A stretch of DNA of 64,000 bases from Planctomycetota bacterium (GCA_016209605.1 JACQVS010000153.1:1-64000), one strand, 5' to 3'; counted from the stretch's first letter, positions 7,113 to 50,447 are shown. A program made the numbers and translations. Notes: a model not told the origin generated them from the sequence alone.

Positions 7113-7472
7113 GCCTCGAGCTTCTGGGAATTTTCATCTACATCTTCCTCCAGCTCCTCATCGGAGTGCTGGTCTCGAAGCGCATCGCCACGCAATCCGA
7201 TTATCTCCTCGCCGGACGCAGCCTCCCACGATCTGGTCGAGCAAGCCTCGTCCTTCGGCAGCGCCGGCCTGTTCATGATCATGGCCTTCGGGCTCTTCAC
7301 CCGCATCGGCCGCAGGGGGAGCGCCTTCGCCGCGCTGCTCGCCGGCACCGGCTCGTGGGCGTGGATGCGCTACGGTATGAACTTCGCGTACCCCTACCTG
7401 GCCTCCCTGGCGGCGGCGCTGGCGGCCTATTTGGGCGTTGCAGTCATCGAAAAATTGAAGGACAATAAGTGA
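7109..7472 (+). pseudogene. Na+/solute symporter (SSS family), internal deletion and frame change
   Basis: The ATG overlaps the beta-helix gene stop as ATGA. The first 40 residues ([20 protein letters not shown], then SDYLLAGRSL) match the first transmembrane helix and the conserved DYLLAGRS motif of sodium/solute symporters. Around position 7225 the sequence jumps to another frame encoding ASHDLVEQASSFGSAGLF, GLFTRIGRRGSAFAALLAG and a last membrane helix, which is the family's C-terminal end. About 350-400 residues of the usual ~500 are missing. It is most simply a deletion derivative and non-functional. Assembly collapse is the alternative. Confidence 0.75.
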
Positions 7473-7502
7473 TGGTTTCTCAGTAATCTGAGGTCGAACA
7501 TC

Positions 7503-33500: not shown

Positions 33501-34598
33501 CGCGGCAAGTTCTGGATCGGCGATGGAGGCGGCGACCCGCTCGATATCCGGCCGGATGACGCCAGCGGGACCAACGAGATCGGTGATTTCCCGGGTGGCA
33601 ATTTCAGACCCGAATCCTTGACCAAGATGGGTTTCAACGGGCTTCACCCCGGCGACCGGCACATCTTCAGCTCCATCCGCTGGGACCTGGGCGGCGACGG
33701 CATCGACTTCTACATGGAGTTCCCGCTCGAAAACGGCAAGTACACCGTCAACCTCTACTTTGACGAGGGCTGCTGCATCAACCGCCGCTTCAAGATCGAG
33801 CTCCAGGGGGCGATCGTCCAGGACGAGGTGAGTTACCTCGACTACGACCCCAGCCCGGCCCTCGGCAAGGGCGGCGTCTTGAGCTTCGAGGCCGACGTCG
33901 ATGCGGGCATCTTGCGCCTCGGCCTCCTGCCGTGCCCGGAGTGCCTGGCCGGCGCCGACACCAACGCCATCATCAGCGCCATCGAGATCCTGGGGGAGAC
34001 CGTCGCCCGTCCCGAGCCGCCCGTGAACCTCGCGGCGGCGCCGGGCGACGGCACGATCAGCTTGAGCTGGCAGGCGCCGGTGGGCCCGCCGGTGGACGGC
34101 TACAACGTCTACAGGACCAAGCCCACCCCCCGCGCCAAGATCAACCCGGTGCCGATCCCGGCGACGCAAATTACCGTGGCCAACCTCCAGAACGGCACCG
34201 AGGCCTGCTTCGTGGTGCGCTCGGTCGATGCGGGCGGAACCGATAGCCGCGATTCCGAGCAGAAGTGCGCCACGCCCGGGCTCGCCCAGAAGGTCTTCCG
34301 CCGCGGCGACGTCGACGACAGCGGCGCGGTCGACATCTCCGACCCGATCAACGAGCTGCACTCGCTCTTCCTGGGCGACTTCGACATCCCCTGCCAGGAT
34401 GCGGCCGACTTCGACGACAGCGGCGAGGTCGATATCTCCGACGCCATCAACAGCCTGCTCTGGCAGTTTGGCGGCGGCCCCATCGCGCCGTTGCCGGGAC
34501 CGTTCGTTTGCGGCCCCGATCCGACCCCGGACAAGGACCCCGTAACCGGCGAGTTCACGGCGGAACTCGGATGCGACTCCTTCAAGATGTGCCCGTAA
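30528..34598 (+). CDS. Secreted protein with four malectin-like modules and dockerin (paralogue B)
   Basis: AAAGGAG lies six bases before the ATG, and the signal peptide is LIFLGALVGLPLANGLA. Four modules start FNIPLRINMGGPETVDSHG, FSIPLRINMGGPEVVDSKG, FDIPLRLNMGGPTLVDSLG and FEPPVRLNMGGASTYDSRG, each with the FNEGCCPQRH-type cysteine pair and the SNAI/TNAI...ALEVL closing strand. Fn3-like linkers carry GYxIFRNGEKIATLPGNAT. A fuller Fn3 domain (PVNLAAAPGDGTISLSWQA) and a dockerin pair (RGDVDDSGAVDISDPI, DFDDSGEVDISDAI) end the protein. It clearly arose by duplication with paralogue A plus module expansion. It is likely a secreted glycan-binding array; ligand unknown. Confidence 0.88.
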   Translation: MRARTLIFLGALVGLPLANGLAQGLFNIPLRINMGGPETVDSHGRAWLGDGPGPDNDISDPLNIRVDDASGTNTIKDFVGGGLQPDSVTALGFDPLSFEDLAIFNSIRWDVGGDGIDFRMEIPVPNGKYLLNLFFNEGCCPQRHFKIEIQGTVVDPDVSHAIGMLERRSYKDVAVSDNLLRIALLPCPDPECPGSLDTNAIINAIEVLSGEGCDHNGLDFNCSYDSGANQVTGTFTDNPNADAYTVLKNGQPFLSLPAGSIGFNDSSPNSGGPLVTYTLQAFDGADPFATCQCAVLALGSATCPGNLTCIPTGTKVDLAWDGGSGINLTGWTVERNGQVIANLPAGDRTFQDSPISRRNNYRVVPATDPGGICAAMSCAACVDLLFSIPLRINMGGPEVVDSKGRTWIGDRGGAGDALCIRPNDLGGTQTLNPVPGQWCPPQFGSIEKYGFDSNHPGDNEIFGTIRWDVGSVVTLGDEPNNFLIEFGIPNGTYLVNLYFNECCCPQRHATVEVQGQVADEDVSSADFDPNFVAGIPGRLSVSNVAVTNQTLAISLLPCTTCPGVGDVNAILSALEVLSNDCSDPDFHQCPSSLSCTVDNTGKATGTWDPPLCLDTTGYQVKKEGQVIQNLPGTATSFTDNFTGRVAEYEVQPLVGPGVDPCLPIRCSAVNTSVPFDIPLRLNMGGPTLVDSLGRKWLGDGAGPGDLLSIRTDDLGGTNTISNWNPFYVINNPDSLRALGLDPANPNDLGIFNTIRWDLADDDNDGQIGEAIDPDGGDHDFHLEIPIPNGTYDVSTYFTEGCCPFRHFQIVLEGNVVEPDVSAALYSTSGNLGRTARLTYPNTAVNDGALNIDLLPCPFDCLGATDSNAIIDALEVLPAGQTLLSCPQDLICADAGGGAMALSWSPGVNVSVSGYDIFRNGEKIATLPGNATTYEDDPVCKRILEYEVVPVSTEPNLCPGLRMHCAVINPAPECPFEPPVRLNMGGASTYDSRGKFWIGDGGGDPLDIRPDDASGTNEIGDFPGGNFRPESLTKMGFNGLHPGDRHIFSSIRWDLGGDGIDFYMEFPLENGKYTVNLYFDEGCCINRRFKIELQGAIVQDEVSYLDYDPSPALGKGGVLSFEADVDAGILRLGLLPCPECLAGADTNAIISAIEILGETVARPEPPVNLAAAPGDGTISLSWQAPVGPPVDGYNVYRTKPTPRAKINPVPIPATQITVANLQNGTEACFVVRSVDAGGTDSRDSEQKCATPGLAQKVFRRGDVDDSGAVDISDPINELHSLFLGDFDIPCQDAADFDDSGEVDISDAINSLLWQFGGGPIAPLPGPFVCGPDPTPDKDPVTGEFTAELGCDSFKMCP

Positions 34599-37500
34599 AA
34601 AAGCCAAAAAAACTAGTGACAGGCACCAGCGGGTGTCTGTCACTAGTTTTTTTCCTGGTTTTTTTCTTTCCAGCTCTCGCCCGCGCCGGCGTGCGCTTGA
34701 GCGAGCTCCTCTACCATCCCCTCGATGACCGCCTGGAGTTCGTCGAGCTGTATAACGACGGTCCGGCGGCGGCCGACCTCTCGGGCTGGCAGTTCACCGA
34801 CGGGATCTACTTCGTCTTCCCCGATGGGGCCACGATTCCGGCCCAAGGGCTCATGGTCGTCGCCCGTAACGTCGATGCCCTGGCGGCGGCAACGGGGCTT
34901 TCCCCGGCGGAGCTCTTCGGCAACACCTTCGATGCCCTCTCGAACGGCGGCGAGCGGGTGGCGCTCGCCGATGCGGGCGGCCAGGTGGTCGAGGAGGTCA
35001 CCTACTCCGACCGTTTGCCCTTCGATCCCGCCGCCGACTCCGGCGGCCGGTCGCTCGAGCGCCTCTGCTTCAGCGCTCCGGCCGATTGGCCCGGCAACTG
35101 GCGCGCTTCGGCTTCGGCGGGGGGGACGCCCCTCGCCGCCAATTCGGCCAGCGCCTGTCCGCCTCCCTTCGCGCCGGTCTTCTCGCCGGTGGTGGTGAAC
35201 GAGATCCACTACCATCCGCCCGGCGCCGGCGATCCCGGCGAGGAGTACCTCGAGCTTTACAACCGCGCCGGCGCGGCCGCCGACCTCCAGGGCTGGCGGC
35301 TCGCCGGCGGGATCGATTACCTCTTCGACGCCGCCGCGGGGCCGGCCTCGATTCCCGCGGGCGGTTATCTCCTGGTGGGAAAGAACCCCGCGGCGCTCGC
35401 GGGGCTGGCCGGTCTTCCGGCGGCGGCGATCGCCGGCCCGTACCTTAAAAAACTTTCCAACTTCAAGGACGAGATCATCCTCCTCGACCCTGACGGGCGA
35501 GAGCTGGAGCGGGTCGAGTACTCGCAGGACGGCCTCTGGCCGGCGCGCGCCGACGGCCTGGGCGGCAGCTTGCAGCGGATCAGCGCCGAGGTCTCCGGCC
35601 TCTTGCCGCAGAACTGGAAGGTGGGCGCCGACGCGAGTTGCGCGCCGGTCAAGGAGTGCGTCTTCTTCCAGAACGGCGCGCCGGTCCGCTGGTTCGAGAA
35701 CCGGAGCGGATTCGATCCCGGCTTCACCGGCGGCGCGCCGTGGTACGACCCCGCCTTCGATGACGTCCAGAACGGCTGGAAGGACGGCAATCTGGCGGTG
35801 GGGTATGACACCGTGGCCTCCTCGGCGCCGGGCTGGATCAACACGCCGTCGACTTCCGTGGCCGGCCTGCACTCGATCCTCCTCCGCCTCGAGTTCGACT
35901 TCGACCCGGCGTCGTTCCCATCGTGCAGCTCGCCGGCGCCGCACCTCTACGCCGACTGGGATGACGGCTTCATCGCGTGGCTCAACGGCGCCGAGATCGC
36001 CCGCGGCGGCATGACCGATCCGCCCGGCACCGTGCCGCCTTTCGACGGCAGCTACCGCGCGCAGATCATCACCGCCAGGGGGGACACCGCCAGGGAGCCG
36101 GTCTACCAGCTGGTCTGGACCGGCGCCGAGGGGAGCTTGAAGCCCGGACGCAACGTCCTCGCCATCGGCAACTACAACTCGCGCTCGACGAGCGGCGACC
36201 TTTTCCTCAGCGCCAGGCTGACCCTGGGGGAGGCGGCCGTCTTGAGCGATCTCACGCCCGGCGCCGCCAACTCGGTGGCGGCGCCGAAGACGCCGCCGCT
36301 CATCGCCGCCGTCGACTGGCTGCCGGTGTGGCCCAAATCGTCCGAGAGCATCGCCGTCGCGGCGCGGGTGGAGGGGGAGGACATCGGCGAGGTGCTGCTC
36401 CACTTCGATGCCGGCGCCGGCGATCAGGCGGTCCCCATGCGCGATGACGGCCAGGCCCCCGATGCCGCGGCCGGCGACGGGACTTTCAGCGCCCCCATCC
36501 CTCCCCAGCCCAACCTGACCCTCGTCCGGGTGCAGGTGGAGGCCCGGAACTCCCTCGGCTGCTCGACCCGCTTCCCCCGGAAAGGGAACCCGTCGCCCCA
36601 CACCGGCTATCTAGTGTCCGACAGCCTCCCCGCCGCCGGCGACCCGGTGCGCCTCTACTACATCTTCACGCCGGGGGCGCTGCGCGACCTCTCGTGCGCC
36701 GACGGCGTCTACCGCCAGGGGAACCTGGTCGACTACCGCGGCCGCGCCCACTTCGATGTCGGCGTCAAGAACCGCGGCGAGACGGCGTGCGGATACCCCA
36801 AGATCCCCATGCGCGTCCGCTTCAACAAGGGGGACCTCCTCGACGGCCAGGAGCATCTCAACTTCAACGCCGGCTGGCAGGACAAGTCGATGATCCGGGA
36901 GCAATTCGCCTTCGACTTCTTCCGCGCTGCCGGCGCCGCGTACTCTGAGACCCACTTTGCGCGCGTCCACACGAACAACGGGGCGTTTTTCGGCGCCTTC
37001 TTCACCATCGAAGACCCTTCCGGGGAGTACCTGCGGCGCAACCGCCAGGATCCCGACGGCGGCCTCTACAAGTGCCGGACGGCCATGCTCACCGGCGGGA
37101 CGAGCGGCTACGAGCCGCAAACCGACGGCGGCGTCGAGAAGCTGCCGGCGGTGGGGAGCTTCGCCTCGAAGCTCAACAGCTCCTCCGGCCAGGCGCTCAT
37201 CGACCACCTGAACGCCAACTTGAACGTCGAGGAGTTCTTCGACTACCAGGCGGTGCAGGTGATCATCATCGACGGCGACTCGGTGGTGAAGAACTGGCTC
37301 CTCCATGTCGGCCAGAGCGACTTCTCCGATGTCGACCGGGACCTCTTCTCGATGTACGCCTGGGACTGCGACCTCACCTACGGGCAGATGCTCCTCACCA
37401 CCGATGTCCGCAACACCAACATCCATCCTCTCTTTCAGACCCAGAGCTACCCCTTCCACGACCAGGGCTACCACGGCATCATCAACGCCGTCCTGCAGCG

Positions 37501-38833
37501 CGCCCCGGACGACTACTACGTCAAGGCGTTTTACGGCCGCACGTGGGCGCTGCTCCAGGAGAAGTTCAACCCGGCGGCGCTCCTTCCCAAGGTCAACGCT
37601 TTCGATGAGGCGACCCGGCAGACGGCCCAGGAGGACCTGAACAAGTGGCCGCGCACCTGGGGGGCGCGCGGCACCGACCTCGCCTACTGGCGGAACGACT
37701 TCCGCGCTTTCATCCAGAAGCGCTTCGACTTCCTGACCGCCTACCTGACGGCGGACAATCCCACCAGCCTGGGGAGGCGGTTCCAGTACACGCCGGCTCC
37801 GCGGGTGAAGATGGTCGAGATCAACTACCATCCTACCGGGGACGAGGAGCTGGAGTTCATCGAGTTCAAGAACTTCGAGGCCGCCCCGGTCGACCTCTCG
37901 GGCTGGGACATCCCGGCGGTGCAGTTCGTCTTTCCGGCGGGGAGCGCGGCGCCGGCGGAGGGGCTCTTCCTGGTGGCGGAGAACCCCCAGGCGCTGCGCG
38001 CGGCCTACGGCGACCCCGGCGTGCCGGTCTTCGGCCCCTATGCCGGCCAGCTCAAGAACGGCGGCGAGACCGCGCGCCTGCGAGACGGCGGCCAGTACCG
38101 CGGCAAGACCTACTACCCGGAGACCATCGACGTGGTGACTTACCGGGACGATCCTCCCTGGCCGCAGGCGGCCGATGGCGAGGGGAGAACCCTCGAGCTC
38201 AAAGACCTCTCCCTCGACAACGACGAGGCCGAGAGCTGGCAGGCCTCCCCGGCGGCCGGCGGATCGCCGGGAGGCTTGCAAGGGAGCAACCGCCCGCCGG
38301 TGGCGAGCCTGGTCATCAATCCCCGCGAGGGATTCATCCCCCTGTCGGTGAGCTTCGACGCCTCGGCGTCGCGCGACCCCGACCGCGACCCGCTCGAGAT
38401 CGCCTGGGACTTCGGCGACGGCGTCTTCGCCCTGGGAGAGCTGGCCAGCCACATTTACACGCGGGCTGGGACGTTCCGCGGCGTGGTTTCGGTGAGCGAC
38501 GGCAGCCACGATCCGGTGCTCCAGTCCTTCGAGATCAAGGCGCTGGAAGTTCCCCGAGGCTATTTCATCCGGGGCGACGTGAACTCGGACGCCGACCTCA
38601 ACATCGCCGACCCGGTGAGGCTCCTCCTGGCGCTCTTTGCCGGCCTGCCGATCACTTGCCGCGAGGCGGCGGAGGTGTTCGATGATGGCCAGCTCGACCT
38701 CTCCGACGTCATCGCCCTTCTACAATACCTCTTCTTGAGAGGCTCCCCCCTGCCGCCGGCCCCATTCCCCGCTTGCGGCCCCGATCCGGACCCCCCGGGC
38801 CTGGGATGCGAGGCCGGCGCCTGCAAAAATTAG
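34589..38833 (+). CDS. Giant secreted protein: lamin-tail domains, CotH kinase-like domain, PKD, dockerin
   Basis: The N-terminus is encoded across an inverted repeat. The best start is GTG at 34589, overlapping the previous stop by ten bases and giving a basic start (PVKKPKK) and a hydrophobic core (LSLVFFLVFFFPALARA); a second in-frame GTG at 34613 is possible. No good ribosome site is visible, so translational coupling is likely. Lamin-tail domains read RLSELLYHPLDDRLEFVEL, VVNEIHYHPPGAGDPGEEYL and MVEINYHPTGDEELEFIEF. The CotH-type domain covers about 720-1070 (DRDLFSMYAWDCDLTYGQ). PKD (FDASASRDPDRDPLEIAWDF) and a dockerin pair (RGDVNSDADLNIADPV, FDDGQLDLSDVI) with FPACGPDPDPPGLGC follow. 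It shares architecture with the minus-strand CotH protein at 22.7-27.5 kb. Confidence 0.85.
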   Translation: MPVKKPKKLVTGTSGCLSLVFFLVFFFPALARAGVRLSELLYHPLDDRLEFVELYNDGPAAADLSGWQFTDGIYFVFPDGATIPAQGLMVVARNVDALAAATGLSPAELFGNTFDALSNGGERVALADAGGQVVEEVTYSDRLPFDPAADSGGRSLERLCFSAPADWPGNWRASASAGGTPLAANSASACPPPFAPVFSPVVVNEIHYHPPGAGDPGEEYLELYNRAGAAADLQGWRLAGGIDYLFDAAAGPASIPAGGYLLVGKNPAALAGLAGLPAAAIAGPYLKKLSNFKDEIILLDPDGRELERVEYSQDGLWPARADGLGGSLQRISAEVSGLLPQNWKVGADASCAPVKECVFFQNGAPVRWFENRSGFDPGFTGGAPWYDPAFDDVQNGWKDGNLAVGYDTVASSAPGWINTPSTSVAGLHSILLRLEFDFDPASFPSCSSPAPHLYADWDDGFIAWLNGAEIARGGMTDPPGTVPPFDGSYRAQIITARGDTAREPVYQLVWTGAEGSLKPGRNVLAIGNYNSRSTSGDLFLSARLTLGEAAVLSDLTPGAANSVAAPKTPPLIAAVDWLPVWPKSSESIAVAARVEGEDIGEVLLHFDAGAGDQAVPMRDDGQAPDAAAGDGTFSAPIPPQPNLTLVRVQVEARNSLGCSTRFPRKGNPSPHTGYLVSDSLPAAGDPVRLYYIFTPGALRDLSCADGVYRQGNLVDYRGRAHFDVGVKNRGETACGYPKIPMRVRFNKGDLLDGQEHLNFNAGWQDKSMIREQFAFDFFRAAGAAYSETHFARVHTNNGAFFGAFFTIEDPSGEYLRRNRQDPDGGLYKCRTAMLTGGTSGYEPQTDGGVEKLPAVGSFASKLNSSSGQALIDHLNANLNVEEFFDYQAVQVIIIDGDSVVKNWLLHVGQSDFSDVDRDLFSMYAWDCDLTYGQMLLTTDVRNTNIHPLFQTQSYPFHDQGYHGIINAVLQRAPDDYYVKAFYGRTWALLQEKFNPAALLPKVNAFDEATRQTAQEDLNKWPRTWGARGTDLAYWRNDFRAFIQKRFDFLTAYLTADNPTSLGRRFQYTPAPRVKMVEINYHPTGDEELEFIEFKNFEAAPVDLSGWDIPAVQFVFPAGSAAPAEGLFLVAENPQALRAAYGDPGVPVFGPYAGQLKNGGETARLRDGGQYRGKTYYPETIDVVTYRDDPPWPQAADGEGRTLELKDLSLDNDEAESWQASPAAGGSPGGLQGSNRPPVASLVINPREGFIPLSVSFDASASRDPDRDPLEIAWDFGDGVFALGELASHIYTRAGTFRGVVSVSDGSHDPVLQSFEIKALEVPRGYFIRGDVNSDADLNIADPVRLLLALFAGLPITCREAAEVFDDGQLDLSDVIALLQYLFLRGSPLPPAPFPACGPDPDPPGLGCEAGACKN
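34606..34653. repeat. Large inverted repeat, REP-like or terminator-like, inside a signal-peptide coding region
   Basis: Seven A, then ACTAGTGACAG-type sequence (34606-34622), pairs with CTGTCACTAG followed by seven T (34637-34653): a 17-bp perfect stem, with inner CACC/GGTG pairs extending it. By shape it is a bidirectional intrinsic terminator for the malectin gene ending at 34598. It also encodes the signal peptide of the next gene. The core AGTGACAG recurs at the end of that gene. Confidence 0.6.
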
Positions 38834-38844
38834 TGACAGTCACT
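38832..38844. repeat. Short palindrome AGTGACAGTCACT after the CotH gene
   Basis: The palindrome has two 6-bp arms around one base and begins on the stop codon of the CotH/lamin-tail gene. Its arms repeat the outer stem of the larger inverted repeat at the gene's start (AGTGACAG...TCACT), as if the internal part had been lost. It may be a shrunken copy of the same element. Confidence 0.4.
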
Positions 38845-38917
38845 CATTTTCTTAGTCTAATATCAGTTGAACCAGGTTTGGGGTGCCAAGCACTTGTTGA
38901 ATTGGAGGCCTCCGCCC

Positions 38918-41461
38918 ATGCGCCGAATTTTCTCCATCGCCGCCGTGCATTGCTTTTTCGCCGTCCTTGCCAGCGCTCAAACCGTCCTCGTCCCCCAGGG
39001 GGAAGACTGGCGCTTCTTCCGCGGGCGCGAGGCGCCGCCGCCCAACTGGGCAACGCCGGAGTTCGAGGCCGCGGGCTGGGAGACCGGCCCCACCGGCATT
39101 GGCTACGGCGACAACGACGATGCGACGGTGCTCGGCGACATGCAAAACAATTACCTCGCGGTCTACCTGCGCACCGAGTTCGTCATCCCGGAGAACATGA
39201 AGGGCTTCACCTGGACTCTGCGCGTCCGCTTTGACGATGGCTTCGTGGCTTATCTCGACGGCGATGAATTCGCCCGGCGCAACGTTGACGGCGCGCCGCC
39301 GGCCTTTGACGACCCCGCGAGCGCCGATCACGAGATCACCAGCGCCGCGGGTTTTGACGAGGCCATCCCCGTCCTCGGCGCCGAGGAGCTGCTCGTCCCG
39401 GGGCGGCACGTCCTCGCCGCGGAGGTGCACAACATCAACTTGACGAGCACCGACCTGTCGTTTTCCGCGGAGCTGTCGACCTATCCCTTCGTGGTCACCG
39501 CCCTCGAGCCGGCTTTCGGCCCCCTCGAGGGCGGCAACACCGTCGCCATCCGAGGCGGCGGCTTCAATCCGGAGGAGGCTCCGGCGGTGCGCTTCGGCGG
39601 CAAGGCCTCGCCGCAAGTGGGGGTGATCAGCGCCGCCGAGCTGCAGGCGGCCGTTCCCGCGGGCGATCTCCCCGGCCTGGTGGCGGTGGAGGTCGAGGAC
39701 TCGCGCGGCCGCGTCGTCCTCCCGAACGCCTACCGCTACTCCGGCGGCGGGGAGACGGCGCTGGCGTTCGACGGCCTGCTCGATGTGGCGACAGCGGAGC
39801 GGTACGGCGAGCTCGCCGGTCAGGGGACCTTCGAGGCCTGGTTCCTGCGCGGGAGCGACTTCCTCAACCTCTGGCGCATCGTGCTGGCGGTGGAGGCGCC
39901 GGACGGCACGAACGCCTTCCGGATCGAAGCGCGCAACAATGAAGTGCGGGCGCGGACGTGGGTGGAGGGCACGCCCAGCAACCTCGCCGCTACCGGCCTC
40001 TCCTTGGGCGCCGGCCAGTGGCATCACCTGGCCTTCACCTTCTCGCCCCAGGGCCGCAAGCTTTACTTCGACGGCGCCCTGGCAGCCTCGGATGCTCTGG
40101 CCATGCGGTTGGAGCCTGGAACCCGCTTCCGGCTGGGGAACGGCTTCTCGGGCGGCCTGCCGGTGCCTTTCCTTGGCCAGCTGCAGTCCATCCGCGTCTG
40201 GGGCGCCGAGCGGACGGCGCTGGAGATCCGCAGATACGCCTTCGCCGGCTTGCGGGCAGGCGAAGGCCTGGAGTCCTCCTGGCCGCTCTCGGAGGGGATC
40301 GGCCAGGAGGCCCGCGACCTCGGCCCGGGGAAGCATACCCTGGTGCTCGGAGCCACCGATGCCGTCGAGGAGGCCGATCCGCAGTGGGCGGCGGTCGAAA
40401 ACTTTCCGGCCCTCGCCATCACCGACATCGACCCGGATCACGGCCCGAGCGGCGGCGGAAACGCCGTGCGCCTCTTCGGAACCGGCTTCTCGGCGGCCCG
40501 GCCGCCGGCGGTGCGCTTTGGCGCCGCCGAGGCTGCGGCGGTGAAAGTGCTGGAGCGCTGGGAACTCGAGGCCGTGGCGCCGGCCGGGCCCGCCAACCAG
40601 GCGGTCGACGTCACGGTGCAGGCGGCTCAAGGCTCCTTCACCGCGCCGCGGGGCTACACCTACGAGCCGCCGCTCCTTTACGACCTGGTGCGCGAGGGGG
40701 ACTTCTGGCAGTACGCCGCCGGCACGGCGCCGCCGCCGGCCAACTGGACCTTGCCCGAGTTCAATCCGATCAACGAGGACTGGAAGACCGGCCGCAGCGG
40801 CCTTGGCTACGGCGACGGCGACGACGCCACCGACGTTTCGATCGATGTGCTCAACCGCAGCCTCACCCTTTACGCCCGCACCGAGTGGGAGATGGCCGGC
40901 GGTGGCGAGCGGATCAACTTCCTCAGGCTGCGCATCCGCTACGACGACGGCTTCGTCGCCTGGTTGAACGGCCAGGAGGTGGCTCGGGCCAACGTCACCG
41001 GCCGGCCGCCGCGCTTCGACGAGCCCGCCGATGGGCAGCACGAGATCGAGGGATCCACCGGCACCTTTGACGACGAGATCGACATTCTGGAGTTCCGCCA
41101 TCAACTGCGGCGCGGCAAGAACGTCCTCGCCGTGGAGGTCCACAACGCCTCCCTCGACAGCACCGACATGTCCCTCTCGGCGGAGCTGATCTACTCGGCT
41201 CCTGGAGCCGCCTTCACCCGCGGCGATGTCGACGGGAACCTCGACTTGACCGTGAGCGACGCGGTGTCGATCCTGCGAGGGCTCTTTGCCGGAGGGCAGC
41301 TCGCCTGCGCGGAGGCGGCGGATGTGGATGACGACGGCGTGCTCTCCATCGTCGACGCCTTCCAGCTTCTGGGATACCTCTTCACCGCCGGCGCCGAGCC
41401 CCCCCTCCCTTTCCGGCAGGCCGCGCCGGACCTGGACGATGACCTCAACGGCTGCGAGTAG
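38918..41461 (+). CDS. Secreted protein: two jelly rolls, two IPT/TIG domains, LamG-like domain, dockerin
   Basis: The start at 38918 has GGAGG nine bases upstream and a signal peptide (IFSIAAVHCFFAVLASA); an upstream TTG start is unsupported. Jelly roll 1 (about 20-185) and jelly roll 2 (about 590-750) share the phrases WRFFRGREAPPPNWATPEF / WQYAAGTAPPPANWTLPEF and GIGYGDNDDATVLGDM / GLGYGDGDDATDVSI. IPT/TIG domains (ALEPAFGPLEGGNTVAIRGG, DIDPDHGPSGGGNAVRLFG) flank a concanavalin/LamG-like domain (about 285-490; GQWHHLAFTFSPQGRKLYFD). The dockerin pair is RGDVDGNLDLTVSDAV and DVDDDGVLSIVDAF. It is probably a secreted glycan- or surface-binding protein. Confidence 0.87.
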   Translation: MRRIFSIAAVHCFFAVLASAQTVLVPQGEDWRFFRGREAPPPNWATPEFEAAGWETGPTGIGYGDNDDATVLGDMQNNYLAVYLRTEFVIPENMKGFTWTLRVRFDDGFVAYLDGDEFARRNVDGAPPAFDDPASADHEITSAAGFDEAIPVLGAEELLVPGRHVLAAEVHNINLTSTDLSFSAELSTYPFVVTALEPAFGPLEGGNTVAIRGGGFNPEEAPAVRFGGKASPQVGVISAAELQAAVPAGDLPGLVAVEVEDSRGRVVLPNAYRYSGGGETALAFDGLLDVATAERYGELAGQGTFEAWFLRGSDFLNLWRIVLAVEAPDGTNAFRIEARNNEVRARTWVEGTPSNLAATGLSLGAGQWHHLAFTFSPQGRKLYFDGALAASDALAMRLEPGTRFRLGNGFSGGLPVPFLGQLQSIRVWGAERTALEIRRYAFAGLRAGEGLESSWPLSEGIGQEARDLGPGKHTLVLGATDAVEEADPQWAAVENFPALAITDIDPDHGPSGGGNAVRLFGTGFSAARPPAVRFGAAEAAAVKVLERWELEAVAPAGPANQAVDVTVQAAQGSFTAPRGYTYEPPLLYDLVREGDFWQYAAGTAPPPANWTLPEFNPINEDWKTGRSGLGYGDGDDATDVSIDVLNRSLTLYARTEWEMAGGGERINFLRLRIRYDDGFVAWLNGQEVARANVTGRPPRFDEPADGQHEIEGSTGTFDDEIDILEFRHQLRRGKNVLAVEVHNASLDSTDMSLSAELIYSAPGAAFTRGDVDGNLDLTVSDAVSILRGLFAGGQLACAEAADVDDDGVLSIVDAFQLLGYLFTAGAEPPLPFRQAAPDLDDDLNGCE

Positions 41462-41559
41462 CGAAAATTCCCCCAATTACGGGAAAGATTTTGTCCCTGC
41501 AAAATCCCTGGCCTCCCCGCGGTTATGACTTTTCCCCGTGGGATGCTAAAATACCGGCA

Positions 41560-41667: not shown

Positions 41668-43756
41668 ATGGTCAGCAAATCGAAAATACTCGAGGTTCTC
41701 GGCGGCGGGTCTTCCGAGCTCCTGCTCATGGAGAAAGTGCGGCGATCGCTGCAGGCCAACGAGCGGGTGAAGTACCTGCTGACGCTCTTGCAGCTGGCCA
41801 AGGTCCAGGCGGAGGAGCCGGCCCCCAATCCTGACGACCTGTCGGTGGAGAGGAAGCGCGCCGGCATCGAGGATCCCGATCTCGACCAGGCCATTCCCCA
41901 CACCATCCTCAAGGGCATCGGCCTCCTGGAGATTCCCGGCGGCGACCGCATCCTGGCGATGGCGCTCGGAGAGACCTTCCGCATGTGCGATCCCCTGATC
42001 CTGGCGCGGCGCCACGAGGGCCAGGCCCTCAAGGAGCGCCTCAAGAACCTGGTATCGATCTGCCGCCCTTATCTCGACGGCAACCACCCCCGCTGGGAGC
42101 CGCTGGCCGAGGAAGCCGGCCTGGAGAAGGAGCGGCCTCCCGAGGGGGAAGGGGCCGCATCGCGAGAGAGTCCAGCCGAAGGGCCGCAGGGAGCGGGCGG
42201 TTCCGGCCCGCTGGTGCTGCCCCTCGAGCTGGTGGGCCGCTTCACCTCGGCGGACCGCGCCCGCGAGGACAGCCTGCATCTCGTGGTCATGGATGCCCAC
42301 AAGGCCTTGAACAGCCTGATCGCCGAGCTCAGCGGCCAGCAGGAGAAGATCGGCGGCGCCGATGCCCTCGGGTTGACCCCGGAGGACCGCCGCCTGGTGG
42401 AGGCTTTCACCGAGGGGGTCAATTCGACCTTCCACTTGAAGGGCGGCCACCAGGGACTCTCCACCACGGCCGTGCGCCTGGGGACGAAGCTGATGATCCA
42501 GAACGACATCGGCGAGACCGACGCTCACGTCGTCCTGCTGGAGATCGAGGACGGCAAGCTCGAGCTGACCTACACCGATGTTCACGACAAGCGGGTGCAG
42601 TTCTTCATCGACATGCTGAGCGATCTGCCCATCCGCTGGAAGAAGACCGAGAGCCGCTACTCCTCGGAGCTGGCCGAGAGCAACTTCATCCTGCTGCGCG
42701 GCCTCCTGAACTTCTCGGAGGCCGCCGAGGCCGCGACGGCGTTGCGGGCCATCGGCAGCATGCTGGTCTTCCTGATCGACTGGAACAAGGCCCGCAAGCG
42801 GGTGCGTACCTTCCTGCGGGGCAGCGACGCCGCCGATGCCCTCCTCTGGGCGGCGCGCGAGCGCATCGGCTTCATGGCTTTCCTCAACTACGGCGACGAG
42901 GAGCTGATTTACGAGGTGCTCGAGGCCCTGCCGCGGGGGACCGTCCGCCGGGGCGAACCGCTCAGCTCGATTCTCGGCAAGGAGGGTTCCATCGAGTTCA
43001 TCAAGGAGGCGCTGCGCATAAGCCGGGAGACCTGCGACCGCCAGGAGTCGCGCATCTTGCTGGTCGACCGGCTGCGCTGCCAGCTCCTCATGCGCGCCCA
43101 GAAGCGGACCGGGCGGGCCGACGACCTCCTGCTGGAGATGGCCAGCCTGGGAGTGGAGGCCGGACTCACCCTGCGCGACGCCCTGCGGGCCTTGAGCCGC
43201 CCGAACCTCGGCCTCATCACCCGCAGCTGCGAGCGCATCCAGAAGTGGGAGGAGCGGGCCGATGACCGCCTCAACCGCATCCGCAAGCTGGGCATCAAGG
43301 ACCCCCAGCCGCTCCTGGCGGTGGCCATGTACGTCGACGATGCCATGGACGCCATGGAAGACGCCGCCGACCTGGCGCGAGCCTTCGAGGAGCATTACGC
43401 TGGAAAAGCCATTACGCCGGAGCTGCTGGCGATGATCGAGGAGGGAGCCGAGCTGGCGCTGCGGGCCACCCAGCTTTTTTATAAAATCATCCATCATTAC
43501 CGCGAGCTGGTGGGGGGGGGGGATCGGCGAGGCCCTGTTCGATGCCATCAACGAACTCAAGCAGACCGAGCATCAAGGAGACCGGCTCAAGAGGATGTTC
43601 CGGTGGAAGTTCTTCTCGACGCCGGGCGATCCGCGGCTGGTCATCGCGCTGCGGGAGCTGGAAGGAGCGCTGGAGGAGGCCATCAACGCCCTGAGCCGGG
43701 CCGGCTTCCTCATCCACGATCTCGCTTACACCGCCATGGAGCGAAGCTATGGTTAA
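41668..43756 (+). CDS. DUF47/PhoU-like C-terminal protein coupled to a PPDK-like gene; G-tract frameshift
   Basis: The frame is good from ATG 41668 to a run of 11 G at 43512-43522. With 10 G the frame continues as IGEALFDAINELKQTEHQG, WKFFSTPGDPRLVIALREL and ends SYG at 43756, eight bases into the next gene, giving about 695 residues. As given, the frame instead runs into a low-quality tail ending at 43761. Residues about 525-695 resemble the DUF47/PhoU-like helical fold (AVAMYVDDAMDAMEDAADLA, LFYKIIHHYRELV). Residues about 190-330 form an unrecognised mixed domain (LKGGHQGLSTTAVRLGTKLM, HVVLLEIEDGKLELTYTDVH). The N-terminal 190 residues are helical and unrecognised. The protein is cytoplasmic with no signal. 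The tight coupling suggests it binds or regulates the PPDK-like partner. Confidence 0.8.
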
Positions 43757-45389
43757 GTTGATCGAAGCCCATCCCATCTACCCCTTCGGCGCCGGCGCCA
43801 GCTCCGCCCCGCCGCCGGAGAAGGAGAGCATCGGCGCCAAGGGCCATCACCTGGCGGTGATGACCGGGTTGGGGCTGCCGGTGCCGCCGGGGTTCATCGT
43901 CATCACCGACGTCTGCCGGAGCTATTACCTCGACTACCGGCTTCCCAAGGAGCTTCCCGAGCAGCTGGCGCTGTCCCTCATGGACCTCAAGAACCGCTGG
44001 GAAACCTCCCTGGCCGGCCCGACCAGGCCCTTTCTGGTGTCGGTGCGCAGCGGCTCGGTCTCGTCGATGCCCGGCATGCTCGAGACCATCCTCAACGTCG
44101 GGCTGAACGACCGCAACGTCGACAAGATCGCCGCCTTCTCCGGCAACCCGCGATTCGCCTGGGACAGCTACCGCCGGCTGATCGCCAGTTTCGGCGCCAT
44201 CGTCCGCAAGATCCCGCGCTCCCGCTTCGATGAGGCGTTCGCGCAGGAGAAGAGGCGCCGCAACGCCGTCCTCAACCGCGAGCTCGACGTCGAGGGGCAC
44301 CAGGAGCTGGCGCTGCGCTACCTCGCCATCTTCGAAGAGGCGACCGGCAAGCCCTTTCCGCAGGATCCGCAGCAGCAGCTCGTCGAGGCGGTGGAGGCGG
44401 TCTTCCAGTCGTGGAGGGGGGCCAGGGCCGTCGAGTACCGCAAGCTCCACGGCATCCCCGATGACGATGGCACGGCGGTGACCGTGCAGGCGATGGTGTT
44501 CGGGAACTTCGGCCACGCCAGCGGGACCGGCGTCGCCTTCACCCGCAACCCGTCGACCGGCGAGCGCGGCTTGTACGCCGACTTCCTGCTCAACGCCCAG
44601 GGAGAGGACATCGTCAGCGGCGGCATCGATCCCGACCGCGGCGAGGAGCTGATGCTGACCTTCCCGAAGCTGTACCAGCAGCTCCTCGAGTACGGGCGGA
44701 TCCTCGAGAACTACTTCACCGACATGCAGGACATGGAGTTCACCATCCAGAACGGCAAGCTGTTCCTGCTCCAGACCCGCAACGGCAAGCGCACGCCCCT
44801 CGCCGCCCTGCGCATCGCCGTTGACCTGGCGGAGGAGGGCATCATCACCCGCGCCACGGCGCTCGACCGGATCCACGAGGTCCCCTTCTCGAAGATCCGC
44901 CAGCCGCGCCTCGAACTGCCCGAGAACATCAACGCCATCGCCCGCGGCGAGGTGGCCTCGCTGGGCTCGCTCTCCGGCCGCATCGCCGTCAACTCCGAGC
45001 AGGCGCGGCGCCTGAAGAGGGAGGGGGAGCCGGTGGTGCTGGTGCGCCCCGAGACCCGCACCGAGGATCTGCCGGGGATCATCGCCGCCGACGGCATCAT
45101 CACCGCCAGCGGCGGCCGCACTTCCCACGCCGCCGTGGTGGCCCGACACCTCGGCAAGGTGTGCCTGACGGGCTGCTATCCCCTCGAGATCGACGAGAAC
45201 GAGGACCTGGTGCGCGTCGGCAGCTACCGCTTCACCGAGGGGGACTGGATCTCCATCGACGGCCACACCGGCAACATCTACCACGGCCGCTTCGAGTCCC
45301 GCCTCGAGGAGGAGGACCCCGCCATCGAGGTGGCGCGGCGCTGGGCGAGGGAGCTCAACCTGCGGGACCACCCGGTCCTGGCTCGATGA
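43749..45389 (+). CDS. Pyruvate-phosphate-dikinase-like protein lacking the PEP/pyruvate barrel
   Basis: Residues about 20-370 match the PPDK ATP-binding region (KGHHLAVMTGLGLPVPPGF, VSVRSGSVSSMPGMLETIL, NLGLN-type NVGLNDRN, FGNFGHASGTGVAFTRNP). Residues about 400-530 form the swivelling phosphohistidine domain, with GGRTSHAAVVARHLGKVC giving catalytic His460 and the neighbouring Thr458. The protein stops at 546 residues, whereas full PPDK is about 880; the C-terminal TIM barrel that makes PEP is absent, and the tail is not decayed. ATP-dependent histidine phosphorylation is expected but the phosphoryl acceptor is unknown. It is translationally coupled to the upstream DUF47-like gene, and its last 35 bp overlap the convergent TPR gene. 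Confidence 0.88.
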   Translation: MVKLIEAHPIYPFGAGASSAPPPEKESIGAKGHHLAVMTGLGLPVPPGFIVITDVCRSYYLDYRLPKELPEQLALSLMDLKNRWETSLAGPTRPFLVSVRSGSVSSMPGMLETILNVGLNDRNVDKIAAFSGNPRFAWDSYRRLIASFGAIVRKIPRSRFDEAFAQEKRRRNAVLNRELDVEGHQELALRYLAIFEEATGKPFPQDPQQQLVEAVEAVFQSWRGARAVEYRKLHGIPDDDGTAVTVQAMVFGNFGHASGTGVAFTRNPSTGERGLYADFLLNAQGEDIVSGGIDPDRGEELMLTFPKLYQQLLEYGRILENYFTDMQDMEFTIQNGKLFLLQTRNGKRTPLAALRIAVDLAEEGIITRATALDRIHEVPFSKIRQPRLELPENINAIARGEVASLGSLSGRIAVNSEQARRLKREGEPVVLVRPETRTEDLPGIIAADGIITASGGRTSHAAVVARHLGKVCLTGCYPLEIDENEDLVRVGSYRFTEGDWISIDGHTGNIYHGRFESRLEEEDPAIEVARRWARELNLRDHPVLAR

Positions 45390-46428: not shown

Positions 46429-46481
46429 GAACAAGATCGAGTAAAATGAGCTCGCCGAATTTATTTTACTCCACCTTGACC

Positions 46482-48356
46482 ATGAATATCAAAAGCACGA
46501 TTTTTTCGATCGCCTTGCTGCTGTCCGCTGGGACTGCAGCCGATGAGAAACCGGCGGCCCAGCCGGCGCCTCGGAGCGACGGGAACCTGCAAATTCCCAC
46601 TCCCAAGCTGAGCGAGCCGGGCAAGTGGCCGCTCGACGCCTTTCTCTCCAAGCTTGAAAGCGGCCGCGATGAGTGGACCAGCGAGCGGACCAGCGAGGAG
46701 CTGACCGGAATCCTTGAGAAGCTGGCCGCCGGCCTTGGGAAAGCGGGCGGCGCCGAGTCCGTGAAGGATCTGCTCGCGGAGCACTTTGCGGGCGATGCGC
46801 CGCTGCCGGAGCCTCTGCGGCCGGTGCTCTCGAACGACTTGGCCGCGGCTTGGCTCTGGCTTCCTGGCCAGGGGGCCGGGACGGAGCGGCTCGGCCGGGA
46901 GGCGTTCCCCGCCGCTTTCCAGAGGCTGGGGGCGCTGTTTTCGAAGGTGGCCAAAATCCAGGTCAAAACCTACCGCGCCGACCGGCTGTCGAATGATCCG
47001 CCGCAATTCTCGACGGAGGTGCTCTTCGAAATGGACGGCCAGGCCGGCCTGGACCCCGGCCAGATCCAGCAAAAAGGTCCGGCGCCGTTCCTGCAGATCC
47101 GCGGCCACTGGAGGATCCGCTGGGAGAAATCGGCAGGCGCGGCCTGGCGCATGGCCGGCTTTGAGGTCCGGCGCTTCGAGAAGGCGGCCCTCAAGCAGCG
47201 GCTCTTCACCGAGATCAGCGATCAGGCTCTCGGCGCCGTTCCGTCCTACCGCGAGCAGCTCCGCTACGGCCTGGAGTACTGGCGCGGCCGCATCGACTCG
47301 GCGAGCGGCATCGAAGTGTACGGCCATCAGGGGATCGCCTGCGGGGACTACGACGGCGACGGCCGCGAAGATCTTTACATCGCCCAGGCGGCCGGGCTCC
47401 CCAACCGCCTATACCGCGCCAGGGGGGACGGGACCTTCGAGGACTGCACCGATCTCGAGGTTCTGGGTTCCCTGGATGAAACCGGAGCGGCGCTCTTCTT
47501 CGACCGGGAGAACGACGGCGACCAGGACCTGCTCGCCGTCACCTCTCTCGAGCTGCTCCTCTTCGACAACGATGGAAAAGGCCGGTTCCGCCGGGTGGAG
47601 GAGAGCGGCCTCGAGGCGGCGCAGGACCGGCGCGCCACCATGATCGGGGCGGCCGTTGCCGACTACGACAACGACGGCTTCCTCGACCTTTACATCATCT
47701 CCTACGTCTTCTGGGCCGGCTCGGCCTCGCGGCGCTCCTCGCCGTACCCCTTCCCCTATCACGATGCCAATAACGGCGCGCCCAACTTCCTCTTCCGCAA
47801 CCGCGGCGACGGCGCCTTCGAGGAGGTGACCAGGGCCTCGGGAATGGATGCCAACAACCGCCGCTACTCCCTGGCCGCCAGCTGGTGCGACTACGACCAG
47901 GACGGCGACGTGGATCTCTACGTCGCCAACGATTTCGGCAAGAACAACCTCTACCAGAATCGAGGCCATGGAACCTTCAAGGATGTCGCCCGGGAGGCGG
48001 GCGTGGAGGATGTGGGGAACGGCATGAGCGTCCAGTGGCAGGACTACGATGGCGATGGCTGGGATGACCTCTACGTCGGCAACATGTGGTCGTCGGCCGG
48101 CAACCGCCTGGCGGCGCAGCCGCAGTTCCGCCGCCGCGAGGGGGGAAATCCCGGCGTCCACCAGCGCATGGCCCGCGGCAACTCTCTCTTCCGCAACCGC
48201 CGCGACGGCGCCTTCGAGGACGTCAGCGAAAAGGCCAACGCCGCTTTCGGGCGCTGGGCCTGGTCGAGCGCCCTGGTGGACGTCGACCTGGATGGCCGGG
48301 AGGACATTTACATCCTGAACGGCTTCGTCACCGGGGAAAGGCACGATGACCTCTGA
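46482..48356 (+). CDS. VCBS/FG-GAP part of a large multidomain exported protein, ending at an in-frame TGA
   Basis: The start at 46482 gives a signal peptide (MNIKSTIFSIALLLSAGTA); ATG at 46446 is an alternative. Residues about 25-270 are an unrecognised helical/beta domain. Residues about 280-620 carry VCBS calcium-loop repeats (DYDGDGREDLYIAQ, DYDNDGFLDLYIIS, DYDQDGDVDLYVAN, DYDGDGWDDLYVGN, DVDLDGREDIYILN). The frame meets TGA at codon 625 in ERHDDL-stop-SFFWRQVV. Homology-like sequence continues in the same frame without interruption for 697 more codons, so this is the first part of a protein of about 1321 residues (see next entries). If TGA truly stops translation, the product would be a truncated exported propeller without its ASPIC domain. 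Confidence 0.85.
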   Translation: MNIKSTIFSIALLLSAGTAADEKPAAQPAPRSDGNLQIPTPKLSEPGKWPLDAFLSKLESGRDEWTSERTSEELTGILEKLAAGLGKAGGAESVKDLLAEHFAGDAPLPEPLRPVLSNDLAAAWLWLPGQGAGTERLGREAFPAAFQRLGALFSKVAKIQVKTYRADRLSNDPPQFSTEVLFEMDGQAGLDPGQIQQKGPAPFLQIRGHWRIRWEKSAGAAWRMAGFEVRRFEKAALKQRLFTEISDQALGAVPSYREQLRYGLEYWRGRIDSASGIEVYGHQGIACGDYDGDGREDLYIAQAAGLPNRLYRARGDGTFEDCTDLEVLGSLDETGAALFFDRENDGDQDLLAVTSLELLLFDNDGKGRFRRVEESGLEAAQDRRATMIGAAVADYDNDGFLDLYIISYVFWAGSASRRSSPYPFPYHDANNGAPNFLFRNRGDGAFEEVTRASGMDANNRRYSLAASWCDYDQDGDVDLYVANDFGKNNLYQNRGHGTFKDVAREAGVEDVGNGMSVQWQDYDGDGWDDLYVGNMWSSAGNRLAAQPQFRRREGGNPGVHQRMARGNSLFRNRRDGAFEDVSEKANAAFGRWAWSSALVDVDLDGREDIYILNGFVTGERHDDL

Positions 48357-48384
48357 AGCTTCTTCTGGCGGCAGGTCGTGCCGC
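48354..48384 (+). promoter_or_regulatory. In-frame TGA with SECIS-like hairpin (possible selenocysteine site)
   Basis: TGA at 48354-48356 is followed after 11 nt by GCGGCA-GGTCG-TGCCGC, a perfect 6-bp stem with a 5-nt loop beginning GG. The loop starts 17 nt after TGA. Bacterial SECIS elements are described as having the apical loop about 16-37 nt after UGA with a G among the first two loop bases, and this fits. A 6-bp stem is not rare in DNA this GC-rich, so the support is moderate. Confidence 0.5.
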
Positions 48385-50447
48385 GCTCGCCGGCGGACGG
48401 GAAGCATCTGGCGCGCTATGACGACGCCTGGGAGGCCGTGAACCAGCTCATCCGCGAGGGGGGCTCGTGGTCGGAATTCGAGCGCAACTGCTTTTACCTC
48501 GCCGCCGGCGATGGCGCCTTCGTGAACTGCTCGGCGGCGAGCGGCCTCGACTTCATCGATGACGGCCGCGCCCTCGCGATCGTGGATCTGGACCGCGACG
48601 GCGACCTGGACCTGGTCTTGAAAAACCGCAGCGGCCCGCAGCTCCGCGTCCTGCGCAACGACACGCCGCGCGCCAACCGCTCCCTGGCCTTCTTCCTCGA
48701 AGGGATCAAGCCCTCCAGCCGCGACGCCATCGGGGCGCGCGTCACCTTGCGCCTGGGAGGCAGGGTGGCCACGAAGACCGTCACTTGCGGGCATCTCTTC
48801 CTCTCGCAAAGCTCGCGGTGGCTCTATTTCGGCCTCGGCAAGGCCGATCGCGCCGATGAAGTCGAGGTGCGCTGGCCCTCCGGAAGAAGGCAGGCCTTCA
48901 AGGACGTGCCGGCGGGCCGGCGCTACCGGCTGGTGGAGGGGGCCGAGCTGAAAGGGGAGCCTTTCGCTTCGCCGGGAGACCCTGCGCCGCCGCCGGCAGC
49001 CGGCTTCGCGGCGGAAGGGGCGCACGGGCCGGAGCCCGAGGCCGGCGGCGGCCGGCGGGAGCTGTGGCTCCTGGCCGAGGGCCCGCTCCCCGAGGTCGCC
49101 GTGAAAACCCTCGCCGGCCAGGCCCTGAAGATTTCCAGCCTGCGGGGCCAGGCGGCGCTGGTGAACTTCTTCAGCCGCCGCTGCGCGCCCTGCGACCGCG
49201 AGATCCGTGACTGGGCGGGCCGGGAGGAGCTGGTCCGGAAGCTCGGCTTGAAGATCGTGCTTCTCAGCGTGGACGGAGCGGATCCGGAGGCCATGGAGGC
49301 GGCGCGGGCTTACTTGCAGGAGCGCCGGGCCCCTTTCCTGGCCGCCGCGGCGGATGACCGCGCTCTCGCGGCATATGGGATGCTGATCCATCAAATCGCG
49401 CGCTGGCCGGTGAATTTCGTGGTCCCCACCAGCCTGCTCATCGGCTTCGATGGCCAGTTGGCCAAGATCTACCAGGGAACGGTGGATTGGGATCGGCTCG
49501 TCGATGACGTGGTGCGGCTCCACCAGACCGTCGACCGCAGGCGCCTGGCGCTCCCTTTCCCAGGGGTCTTCTACTCCGGCCAGCCGCCGCGGGACTACTT
49601 TCACCTCGGGCTGGGCTACTGGGAGAGAGGGCTGCTCGATCTCGCCATCGGCGCCCTCGAGCGGGGGCTCCAGCAGCGGCCGCTCGATGCGGACCTGGCC
49701 TACAACATCGGCGTCCTCCATCTCGGCCAGGGGGAGCTGGAGCCGGCGGCGGCCGCCTTCAAGCGGGCGATCGCGTCCGATGCCGACTTCGCCGACGCCT
49801 ACTCGAACCTGGGCGTCGCGCTGGCGCAAGGGGGGGATTTCGAGGGCGCGCTCAAGCAGTTTCAAGAGGCGCAGCGGTTGCGGCCGGGGTATTCCGAGCC
49901 GCTCCTCAACGAGGCCGGCGTCCACACCCAGCGCGGCGACTGGGAGAAGGCGCTGGCGATTTACGAGCAGGTGCGCGCCGCCGAGCCGTTCCTTGCGGAC
50001 GTGCACAAGCGCCTGGGAGAGGTTTATCATCACCGCGGCGAGGAGCTGCGGGCCGTGGAGTCGTTCCAGGAGGCGCTGCGCCTCGAGCCGCAGGATGCCG
50101 AGGCGCGCTCCAACCTGGCGGTGGTCCTGGCCGGCCTGGGGAAGTTCCCGGAGGCGCGGAAGGAGCTCGAGCAGGTGATCGGCGGGCATCCGAAGCACGC
50201 CGCCGCGCACAACAACCTCGGGCTGGTGCTGCAGGCGATGGGGGAGATGGAGGCCGCCGGCGCCAGCTTCCGCCGCGCCCTGGAGCTCAAGCCGGGCCTG
50301 GCGGAGGCGGCCCTCAACCTGGCGCGCTGGCTCCTTCGCCAGGACAAGGCGGAGGAGGCGAGGGGGGTCCTCGACGACTACTTGAAGCGCCATCCGGAGC
50401 ACCCGGCAGTTCGGGCGCTGCGTGATAAAATCAGGGACAGGCGCTAA
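48357..50447 (+). CDS. Continuation past the TGA: ASPIC/UnbV, thioredoxin-like and TPR domains
   Basis: This is in the same frame as the preceding part. A conventional caller would start it at GTG 48378, but SFFWRQVVPRSPADG before and around that codon already looks coding. In order it has a last VCBS loop (DLDRDGDLDLVLKN) and an ASPIC/UnbV domain (about 95-190 from the TGA; SRDAIGARVTLRLGGRV, LYFGLGKADRADEVEVRWPS). A TlpA/AhpC-like thioredoxin fold follows (about 240-380; VNFFSRRCAPCDREIRDW, redox pair CAPC), then at least six TPRs (DLAYNIGVLHLGQGELEPA, ADAYSNLGVALAQGGDFEGA, AAAHNNLGLVLQAMGEMEA). There is no signal peptide of its own, which argues against an independent gene because its domains are extracytoplasmic types. 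Confidence 0.85.
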   Translation, partial: SFFWRQVVPRSPADGKHLARYDDAWEAVNQLIREGGSWSEFERNCFYLAAGDGAFVNCSAASGLDFIDDGRALAIVDLDRDGDLDLVLKNRSGPQLRVLRNDTPRANRSLAFFLEGIKPSSRDAIGARVTLRLGGRVATKTVTCGHLFLSQSSRWLYFGLGKADRADEVEVRWPSGRRQAFKDVPAGRRYRLVEGAELKGEPFASPGDPAPPPAAGFAAEGAHGPEPEAGGGRRELWLLAEGPLPEVAVKTLAGQALKISSLRGQAALVNFFSRRCAPCDREIRDWAGREELVRKLGLKIVLLSVDGADPEAMEAARAYLQERRAPFLAAAADDRALAAYGMLIHQIARWPVNFVVPTSLLIGFDGQLAKIYQGTVDWDRLVDDVVRLHQTVDRRRLALPFPGVFYSGQPPRDYFHLGLGYWERGLLDLAIGALERGLQQRPLDADLAYNIGVLHLGQGELEPAAAAFKRAIASDADFADAYSNLGVALAQGGDFEGALKQFQEAQRLRPGYSEPLLNEAGVHTQRGDWEKALAIYEQVRAAEPFLADVHKRLGEVYHHRGEELRAVESFQEALRLEPQDAEARSNLAVVLAGLGKFPEARKELEQVIGGHPKHAAAHNNLGLVLQAMGEMEAAGASFRRALELKPGLAEAALNLARWLLRQDKAEEARGVLDDYLKRHPEHPAVRALRDKIRDRR

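Follow-up and report, generated by a model that had tools for sequence, protein, structure and literature searches.

A barrel-less relative of pyruvate phosphate dikinase encoded beside a DUF47/PhoU-like protein, a putative phosphotransfer module

Pyruvate phosphate dikinase (PPDK; TIGR01828; PDB 1KBL, 1DIK) joins an ATP-grasp domain and a mobile "swivel" domain carrying the catalytic histidine to a phosphoenolpyruvate (PEP)/pyruvate TIM barrel. Rifampin phosphotransferase (RPH) uses the same ATP-grasp and swivel histidine on an acceptor other than pyruvate, in a single protein (PMC4844700). HpeHI, CreHI and PpsAB are two-component phenolic dikinases in which the acceptor and ATP parts lie on separate proteins (PMC12167813). 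VadK (Rv1127c) of Mycobacterium tuberculosis is a relative of PPDK without the barrel that autophosphorylates on the equivalent histidine in an ATP- and Mg-dependent manner, interacts with methylcitrate-cycle enzymes and has been described as a regulatory kinase (PMC13400623). Two-component dikinases and barrel-less PPDKs are thus each already known, the latter because VadK has been shown to autophosphorylate on that histidine. Here we describe a different arrangement, at positions 41668-45389 of a 64,000-nucleotide stretch (henceforth the window; JACQVS010000153.1, our contig C122) of a planctomycete draft genome (GCA_016209605.1; 6.2 Mb, 275 contigs, 80% complete), in which a barrel-less PPDK relative directly follows the gene of a protein with a PhoU/DUF47-like C-terminus, henceforth the partner. 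The features of the pair are as follows.

41668-43756, plus strand: partner gene, with a frame change inside; the open reading frame (ORF) as listed runs to 43761 (ORF listing, G+C content by codon position, profiles)
41668-43044, plus strand: N-terminal part of the partner, about 459 residues, of no known family, with its boundary placed according to a relative's model (alignment, profiles, model)
43045-43756, plus strand: PhoU/DUF47-like helical domain with an invariant E-x3-D (E528/D532 of the window protein; profiles, fold search, alignment)
43512-43522, plus strand: run of 11 G, site of the partner's frame change (codon-position G+C, profiles)
43749-45389, plus strand: barrel-less PPDK-like gene, 546 residues (domain profiles, alignment, structure model)
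43821-44783, plus strand: PPDK-type ATP-grasp domain, residues ~25-345 (profile, alignment)
44934-45293, plus strand: mobile phosphohistidine (swivel) domain, residues ~396-515 (profile, alignment, model)
45126-45128, plus strand: codon of His460, equivalent to the phosphorylated His455 of Clostridium symbiosum PPDK (alignment)

The PPDK-like ORF, whose coding frame is supported by codon-position G+C, matches PPDK_N (148.9 bits) and the PEP-utilizers mobile domain (69.2 bits) and no other domain. It aligns to residues 16-529 of the 874 of C. symbiosum PPDK and ends just past the linker helix. Over the shared ATP-grasp and swivel domains it is 41-44% identical to canonical PPDK (~530 columns), and the predicted model (predicted local distance difference test score, pLDDT, 92.5) superposes on 1KBL over 536 columns with a template-modelling (TM) score of 0.86 on the query; on TIGR01828 itself the protein scores 597 bits, below the cut-off of 843. 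The eight catalytic residues that were checked are all kept, among them the catalytic histidine and the complete set of ATP-site residues examined (K31, R100, D328, E330, Q342 and R344, corresponding to K22, R92, D321, E323, Q335 and R337 of C. symbiosum). Among 47 paired proteins, i.e. PPDK-like proteins encoded next to a partner, the equivalents of K22, R92, E323, Q335, R337, T453 and H455 are invariant and that of D321 nearly so, while changes specific to the paired clade are found just past the histidine helix (G to Q at 467) and beside the ATP-site lysine (G to A at 32). Because the PPDK active-site residues are invariant or nearly so across the paired proteins, the ATP-to-histidine half of the reaction appears to be under selection, with the acceptor half removed. 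An initial annotation of the window, made from the sequence alone, had described a protein that keeps the ATP-binding part and the phosphohistidine domain (motif GGRTSHAAVV, with His460), lacks the TIM barrel and ends cleanly at 546 residues without being a fragment. The motif is present, the profiles match both domains and no barrel, and the domain end and the length recur in relatives. A chance ORF or a PPDK fragment is ruled out by the conservation of both in 71 complete relatives.

The partner required more correction. The initial annotation had treated it as one 695-residue protein whose stop overlaps the start of the PPDK-like gene. The ORF as listed has 697 residues (41668 to 43761), and codon-position G+C changes frame at ~43,500, at the run of 11 G. 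The tail read in the next frame matches the C-termini of relatives with E 1.5e-7 (best value for the listed in-frame tail, 0.09), and a profile built from four relatives independently matches 43535-43735 in that other frame, from which we place the true partner stop at 43754-43756. The last ~80 residues of the listed ORF are therefore, by comparison with relatives, a frame-shift product, the real DUF47-like end being ...AMERSYG followed by the stop. The gene and its PhoU/DUF47-like C-terminus stand as annotated, the continuous reading frame does not, and the overlap with the PPDK start survives the correction, at 8 nt. The extra G may be an assembly error or a real mutation or slippage.

Over its C-terminal ~200 residues the partner shares the fold of DUF47/PhoU_div proteins (PDB 3L39, 2IIU). 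The window protein alone scores 13.4 bits on DUF47 (PF01865), under the Pfam cut-off of 24.4; DUF47 is matched by 29 of 54 partner relatives at E <= 0.1 (best 2.4e-12), and the C-terminus resembles 3L39 both by profile (E 2.5e-9) and by fold (TM score 0.83 on the target). The PhoU-like fold and the DUF47 family match are thus firm. Unlike the solved proteins, which consist of ~210-230 residues alone, the partner adds ~410-460 unclassified residues in front of the bundle (~410 in relatives, ~459 in the window protein). That this part belongs to no known family, as first noted, was upheld by profile searches (no worthwhile match in Pfam, NCBIfam or PDB) and by a fold search that returned weak and unconvincing matches, e.g. 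AmyR of the YbjN family (probability ~0.6, root-mean-square deviation 7.5). An AlphaFold model of a relative's partner (L025) has good local confidence (mean pLDDT 89.8, predicted TM score 0.68). The partner alignment, in which relatives are 31-48% identical to the reference row, contains 31 polar positions conserved in at least 97% of sequences, among them five histidines, H204, H211, H261, H287 and H306 in the numbering of the window protein, and 25 to 26 of the 31 precede the PhoU-like domain. That so many H, D, N, K, R and W residues are invariant in the N-terminal part suggests a catalytic or ligand-binding site.

Relatives of the pair were sought in 59 whole genomes (the planctomycete and its relatives), in a wide scan of ~85,000 species genomes, and with partner and PPDK profiles in an unbiased sample of 289 Alphaproteobacteria genomes that includes two seed genomes. 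Among the 59, the partner occurs in three genomes besides its own (G007, G010 and G012). The next gene downstream is PPDK-like in all three, complete and barrel-less in G007 and G010 and cut by the contig end in G012. The wide scan confirmed 157 partner relatives, the best 80 of which were analysed; they belong to Planctomycetota, Pseudomonadota (Bradyrhizobium, Xanthobacter, Acidocella, Beijerinckia, Accumulibacter, Pseudomonas mandelii and others), Eisenbacteria and methanogens (Methanospirillum, Methanoregulaceae). A PPDK-like gene lies directly downstream on the same strand in 74 of these 80 loci, and barrel homology was found in none of the 80. With one planctomycete locus (L016) added to the 80, 71 of the 72 complete downstream PPDK-like genes encode 519-569 residues, and 68 of the 72 overlap the partner gene by at most 41 nt or are separated from it by at most 29 nt. 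The single exception in size (795 residues, the usual being ~545) is from Accumulibacter adjunctus (L061, 8958-11342) and has no barrel homology.

The alphaproteobacterial sample gave the same picture: the partner profile matched nine of the 289 genomes, a barrel-less PPDK adjoins the partner in all nine, and among the PPDK profile matches listed there was no complete barrel-less protein outside them (one PPDK frame of 591 residues, in G550, sits at the end of a contig). Distances among partners and among PPDK-like proteins are strongly correlated (r = 0.95 over 45 pairs; 0 of 2000 permutations), as would be expected from joint inheritance. The module is nevertheless rare and patchy, with strong partner matches in four of 392 sampled Planctomycetota genomes and, among 229 sampled Gammaproteobacteria, in the seed genome only. 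The possibility raised at the outset that the pair might be peculiar to this genome fails on the 74 loci and the nine alphaproteobacterial genomes. Of the six loci without a downstream PPDK, two are at contig ends (L026, L093), and in four (L036, two in Nitrospirillum, and L085) the partner stands alone. These solitary partners also keep the near-invariant polar residues, bar one tyrosine in one of them. In Nitrospirillum viridazoti (L044) the solitary partner (6995-8938), followed by no PPDK, overlaps the end of a gene (6465-6998) that looks flavodoxin-like by eye, a neighbour that might hint at the partner's role alone.

In a quick tree with approximate likelihood-ratio (SH-aLRT) support and no bootstrap, 36 paired PPDKs fall on one side of a branch (SH-aLRT 99), and 14 full-length PPDKs and four sampled actinobacterial barrel-less proteins on the other. 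This is most simply explained by a single loss of the barrel, after which the gene and its partner were inherited together. Barrel loss has probably happened more than once in the wider family, since the actinobacterial barrel-less proteins fall in at least two places among the full-length PPDKs. Like VadK, which by our own assignment is probably of the PRK05878/NF004531 type, the paired proteins are PPDKs without a barrel that end after the histidine domain. They are no closer to PRK05878 than full-length PPDKs are: the window protein scores 456.6 bits (cut-off 456), full-length PPDKs 510-560 and a Rhodococcus member 785. Neither this score nor the clade supports membership of the VadK group, the VadK sequence itself lying outside both the comparison and the tree. 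No partner was found in five actinobacterial plasmid records with PPDK-like genes, in a search that had no positive control. Other barrel-less PPDKs were seen in apparent operons on a Rhodococcus plasmid (L124, 718-11383) and in L125, with PEP-utilizing-enzyme fragments, AMP-binding, and biotin/carboxyltransferase or aldehyde dehydrogenase genes as neighbours; they are apparently a different dikinase group, perhaps substrate-activating.

The resemblance to HpeHI, CreHI and PpsAB lies in the proposed spread of one dikinase reaction over two proteins, with the acceptor apart from the ATP-grasp domain. The division differs: in HpeHI the swivel and acceptor domains share one protein (HpeH), leaving the ATP-grasp by itself (HpeI), whereas in our pair the ATP-grasp and swivel domains are together, and the partner's N-terminal domain resembles the rifampin-binding domain of RPH neither by profile nor by fold search. 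RPH itself shares the ATP-grasp and swivel-histidine engine, and differs in being a single protein (PMC4844700); the best fold match of the PPDK-like protein to it (E 1e-10, 14% identity) is weaker than to PPDK.

Gene neighbours of the pair differ between lineages, apart from Bradyrhizobium, in which it follows genes for phosphoketolase (xfp; 16 loci in all) and acetate kinase (ackA; 13 loci in all). In one such locus (L078, 3313-10553) a single strand carries the genes for phosphoketolase, acetate kinase, partner and barrel-less PPDK one after another, and in Bradyrhizobium STM 3809 phosphate acetyltransferase and acetate kinase lie just upstream on the opposite strand. This hints at a link to acetyl-phosphate or energy metabolism in the Bradyrhizobium lineage, not in general. 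Oxygen-responsive control of the FNR/FixK type, a candidate prompted by the xfp, ackA and fabI neighbours, was rejected, as a box upstream of the partner occurs in 51% against a 50% background with two mismatches. Anti-phage defence was likewise dropped, neither protein having a PADLOC match in two genomes. In the window, two large genes upstream of the pair (34265-41461; one with LTD, CotH kinase and PKD domains, the other with Laminin_G_3 and TIG) show no link to it that we could find. One further feature precedes the pair.

41525-41552, plus strand: weak sigma-70-like promoter match, not in itself a sign of function (promoter scan)

What might the pair do? RPH, HpeHI, CreHI, PpsAB and VadK indicate that the engine can serve acceptors other than pyruvate, and for this reason we propose, at about even chances, a two-protein dikinase or phosphotransfer machine in which His460 takes its phosphate from ATP and the acceptor site lies in the N-terminal domain of the partner. 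By analogy with PPDK, the PPDK-like protein would bind ATP in its ATP-grasp domain, pass the beta-phosphate to His460 and release AMP and pyrophosphate; inorganic phosphate would probably be bound too, as in PPDK rather than PEP synthase. The swivel domain, bound for the pyruvate site of the TIM barrel in PPDK, would swing to the partner instead, and the phosphate would be passed to an acceptor held by the partner's N-terminal domain, most likely a small metabolite, while the PhoU-like bundle may hold the assembly together or sense phosphate. The many invariant polar residues of the partner lead us to favour a small-molecule acceptor over phosphorylation of the partner itself. Several points weigh against this proposal. 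Contact between the proteins and activity of the pair are what we infer, and linkage and co-inheritance alone are no proof of contact. No family or fold match in Pfam, NCBIfam, PDB or the fold search gives the N-terminal domain an enzymatic identity, and the gene neighbours point to no single metabolite. The partner is alone in four loci, and the three such genomes searched carry full-length PPDK only; it can therefore exist without a barrel-less PPDK, with nearly all its invariant residues kept. Solitary partners could use full-length PPDK as donor, or do something else. The earlier label of an unknown phosphotransfer module is a fair one.

A protein phosphorelay, which we regard as possible but clearly less probable, would carry the phosphate from His460 to a conserved His or Asp of the partner, as an ATP-driven analogue of the step from enzyme I to HPr, the phosphorylated partner then acting as a regulator through its PhoU-like domain. 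In its favour, the N-terminal part of the partner has five histidines and several aspartates that are invariant, the swivel domain is homologous to that of enzyme I, PhoU-like domains belong to families of phosphate regulators, and VadK has been called a regulatory kinase (PMC13400623). Against it, the many invariant positions (N, D, K, R and W) resemble an active centre or a site for a ligand more than they do one phospho-acceptor residue, the partner has no recognised output domain, DNA-binding or otherwise, and the histidines persist in solitary partners, which no barrel-less PPDK accompanies. It seems unlikely that the PPDK-like protein is instead an autokinase acting like VadK on other metabolic enzymes, with the partner as a controlling regulator or scaffold rather than an acceptor site: VadK does autophosphorylate without a barrel and interacts with methylcitrate-cycle enzymes (PMC13400623), and the pair does follow phosphoketolase and acetate kinase genes in Bradyrhizobium, but the paired clade is separate from the sampled actinobacterial barrel-less proteins, scores under ordinary PPDKs on PRK05878, and so many near-invariant polar residues (25) would be surprising in a mere regulator.

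We consider it similarly improbable that the module is decaying in this genome, the partner being a pseudogene and the window a remnant. The frame change at the G run would fit, yet 615 residues before the run and ~80 after it are intact, as are all near-invariant residues ahead of the run and the PPDK, and homopolymer errors can occur in a draft of 275 contigs; decay here would in any case leave the conserved module elsewhere unaffected. Finally, split and two-component dikinases exist (PMC12167813), so a separate barrel protein might complete an ordinary PPDK. The only two barrels found in the 80% complete genome belong to a 582-residue frame of enzyme-I size and to a full-length PPDK. The initial annotation had named a conserved separate barrel gene as a refutation of its reading; with no stand-alone barrel gene found in this genome or in any paired locus, and with a full-length PPDK already present in this and several other genomes, a split PPDK is largely refuted and most improbable.

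Downstream of the pair the window holds a separate observation. An in-frame TGA (48354-48356) divides two ORFs of the same frame (46446-48356 and 48378-50447) that together encode a CRTAC1-like FG-GAP/UnbV_ASPIC protein fused to redoxin and TPR domains. With a query typed with cysteine at that position, one TGA was found within the same stretch in 45 of 46 matches, from 21 of 59 planctomycete genomes; it occupies the same column in 11 loci read by a simple pattern, with ...DDL before it and SFFWRQVV after it or close variants. The genome from which the window comes contains a tRNA-Sec match (72 bits). The TGA appears to mark a selenocysteine position in a family widespread among planctomycetes, on which a literature search found nothing.

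In the literature searched, which largely excludes subscription journals, we found no account of the paired clade or its constant partner, of this division of domains or of the N-terminal domain of the partner; no paper was found joining DUF47 or PhoU-like with 'pyruvate phosphate dikinase', and a search for truncated PPDKs was also empty. In databases the partner is named 'DUF47 family protein', 'phosphate transport regulator' or 'hypothetical protein', and the paired PPDK 'PEP/pyruvate-binding domain-containing protein', a misleading name because the PEP/pyruvate site is the missing part. PPDK-family dikinases are a modular toolkit in which one ATP-grasp and swivel-histidine engine is kept and only the acceptor part is changed, for PEP synthesis, rifampin inactivation, phenol activation or VadK-type regulation. 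The pair adds a further arrangement, engine and carrier on one protein and a putative new acceptor domain on another, co-inherited across phyla. It offers a possible function for the large unclassified domain of the partner and a way of looking, by defined tests, for a new phosphorelay between proteins or a new phosphorylated metabolite. We suggest, tentatively, that it represents a distinct class of phosphotransfer in bacteria and methanogenic archaea, from an ATP-charged phosphohistidine protein of the PPDK type to or through an undescribed domain of a separate PhoU-like partner; if so, it would be an ATP-driven counterpart of the PEP-driven relay of the phosphotransferase system, or a dikinase for some other metabolite.

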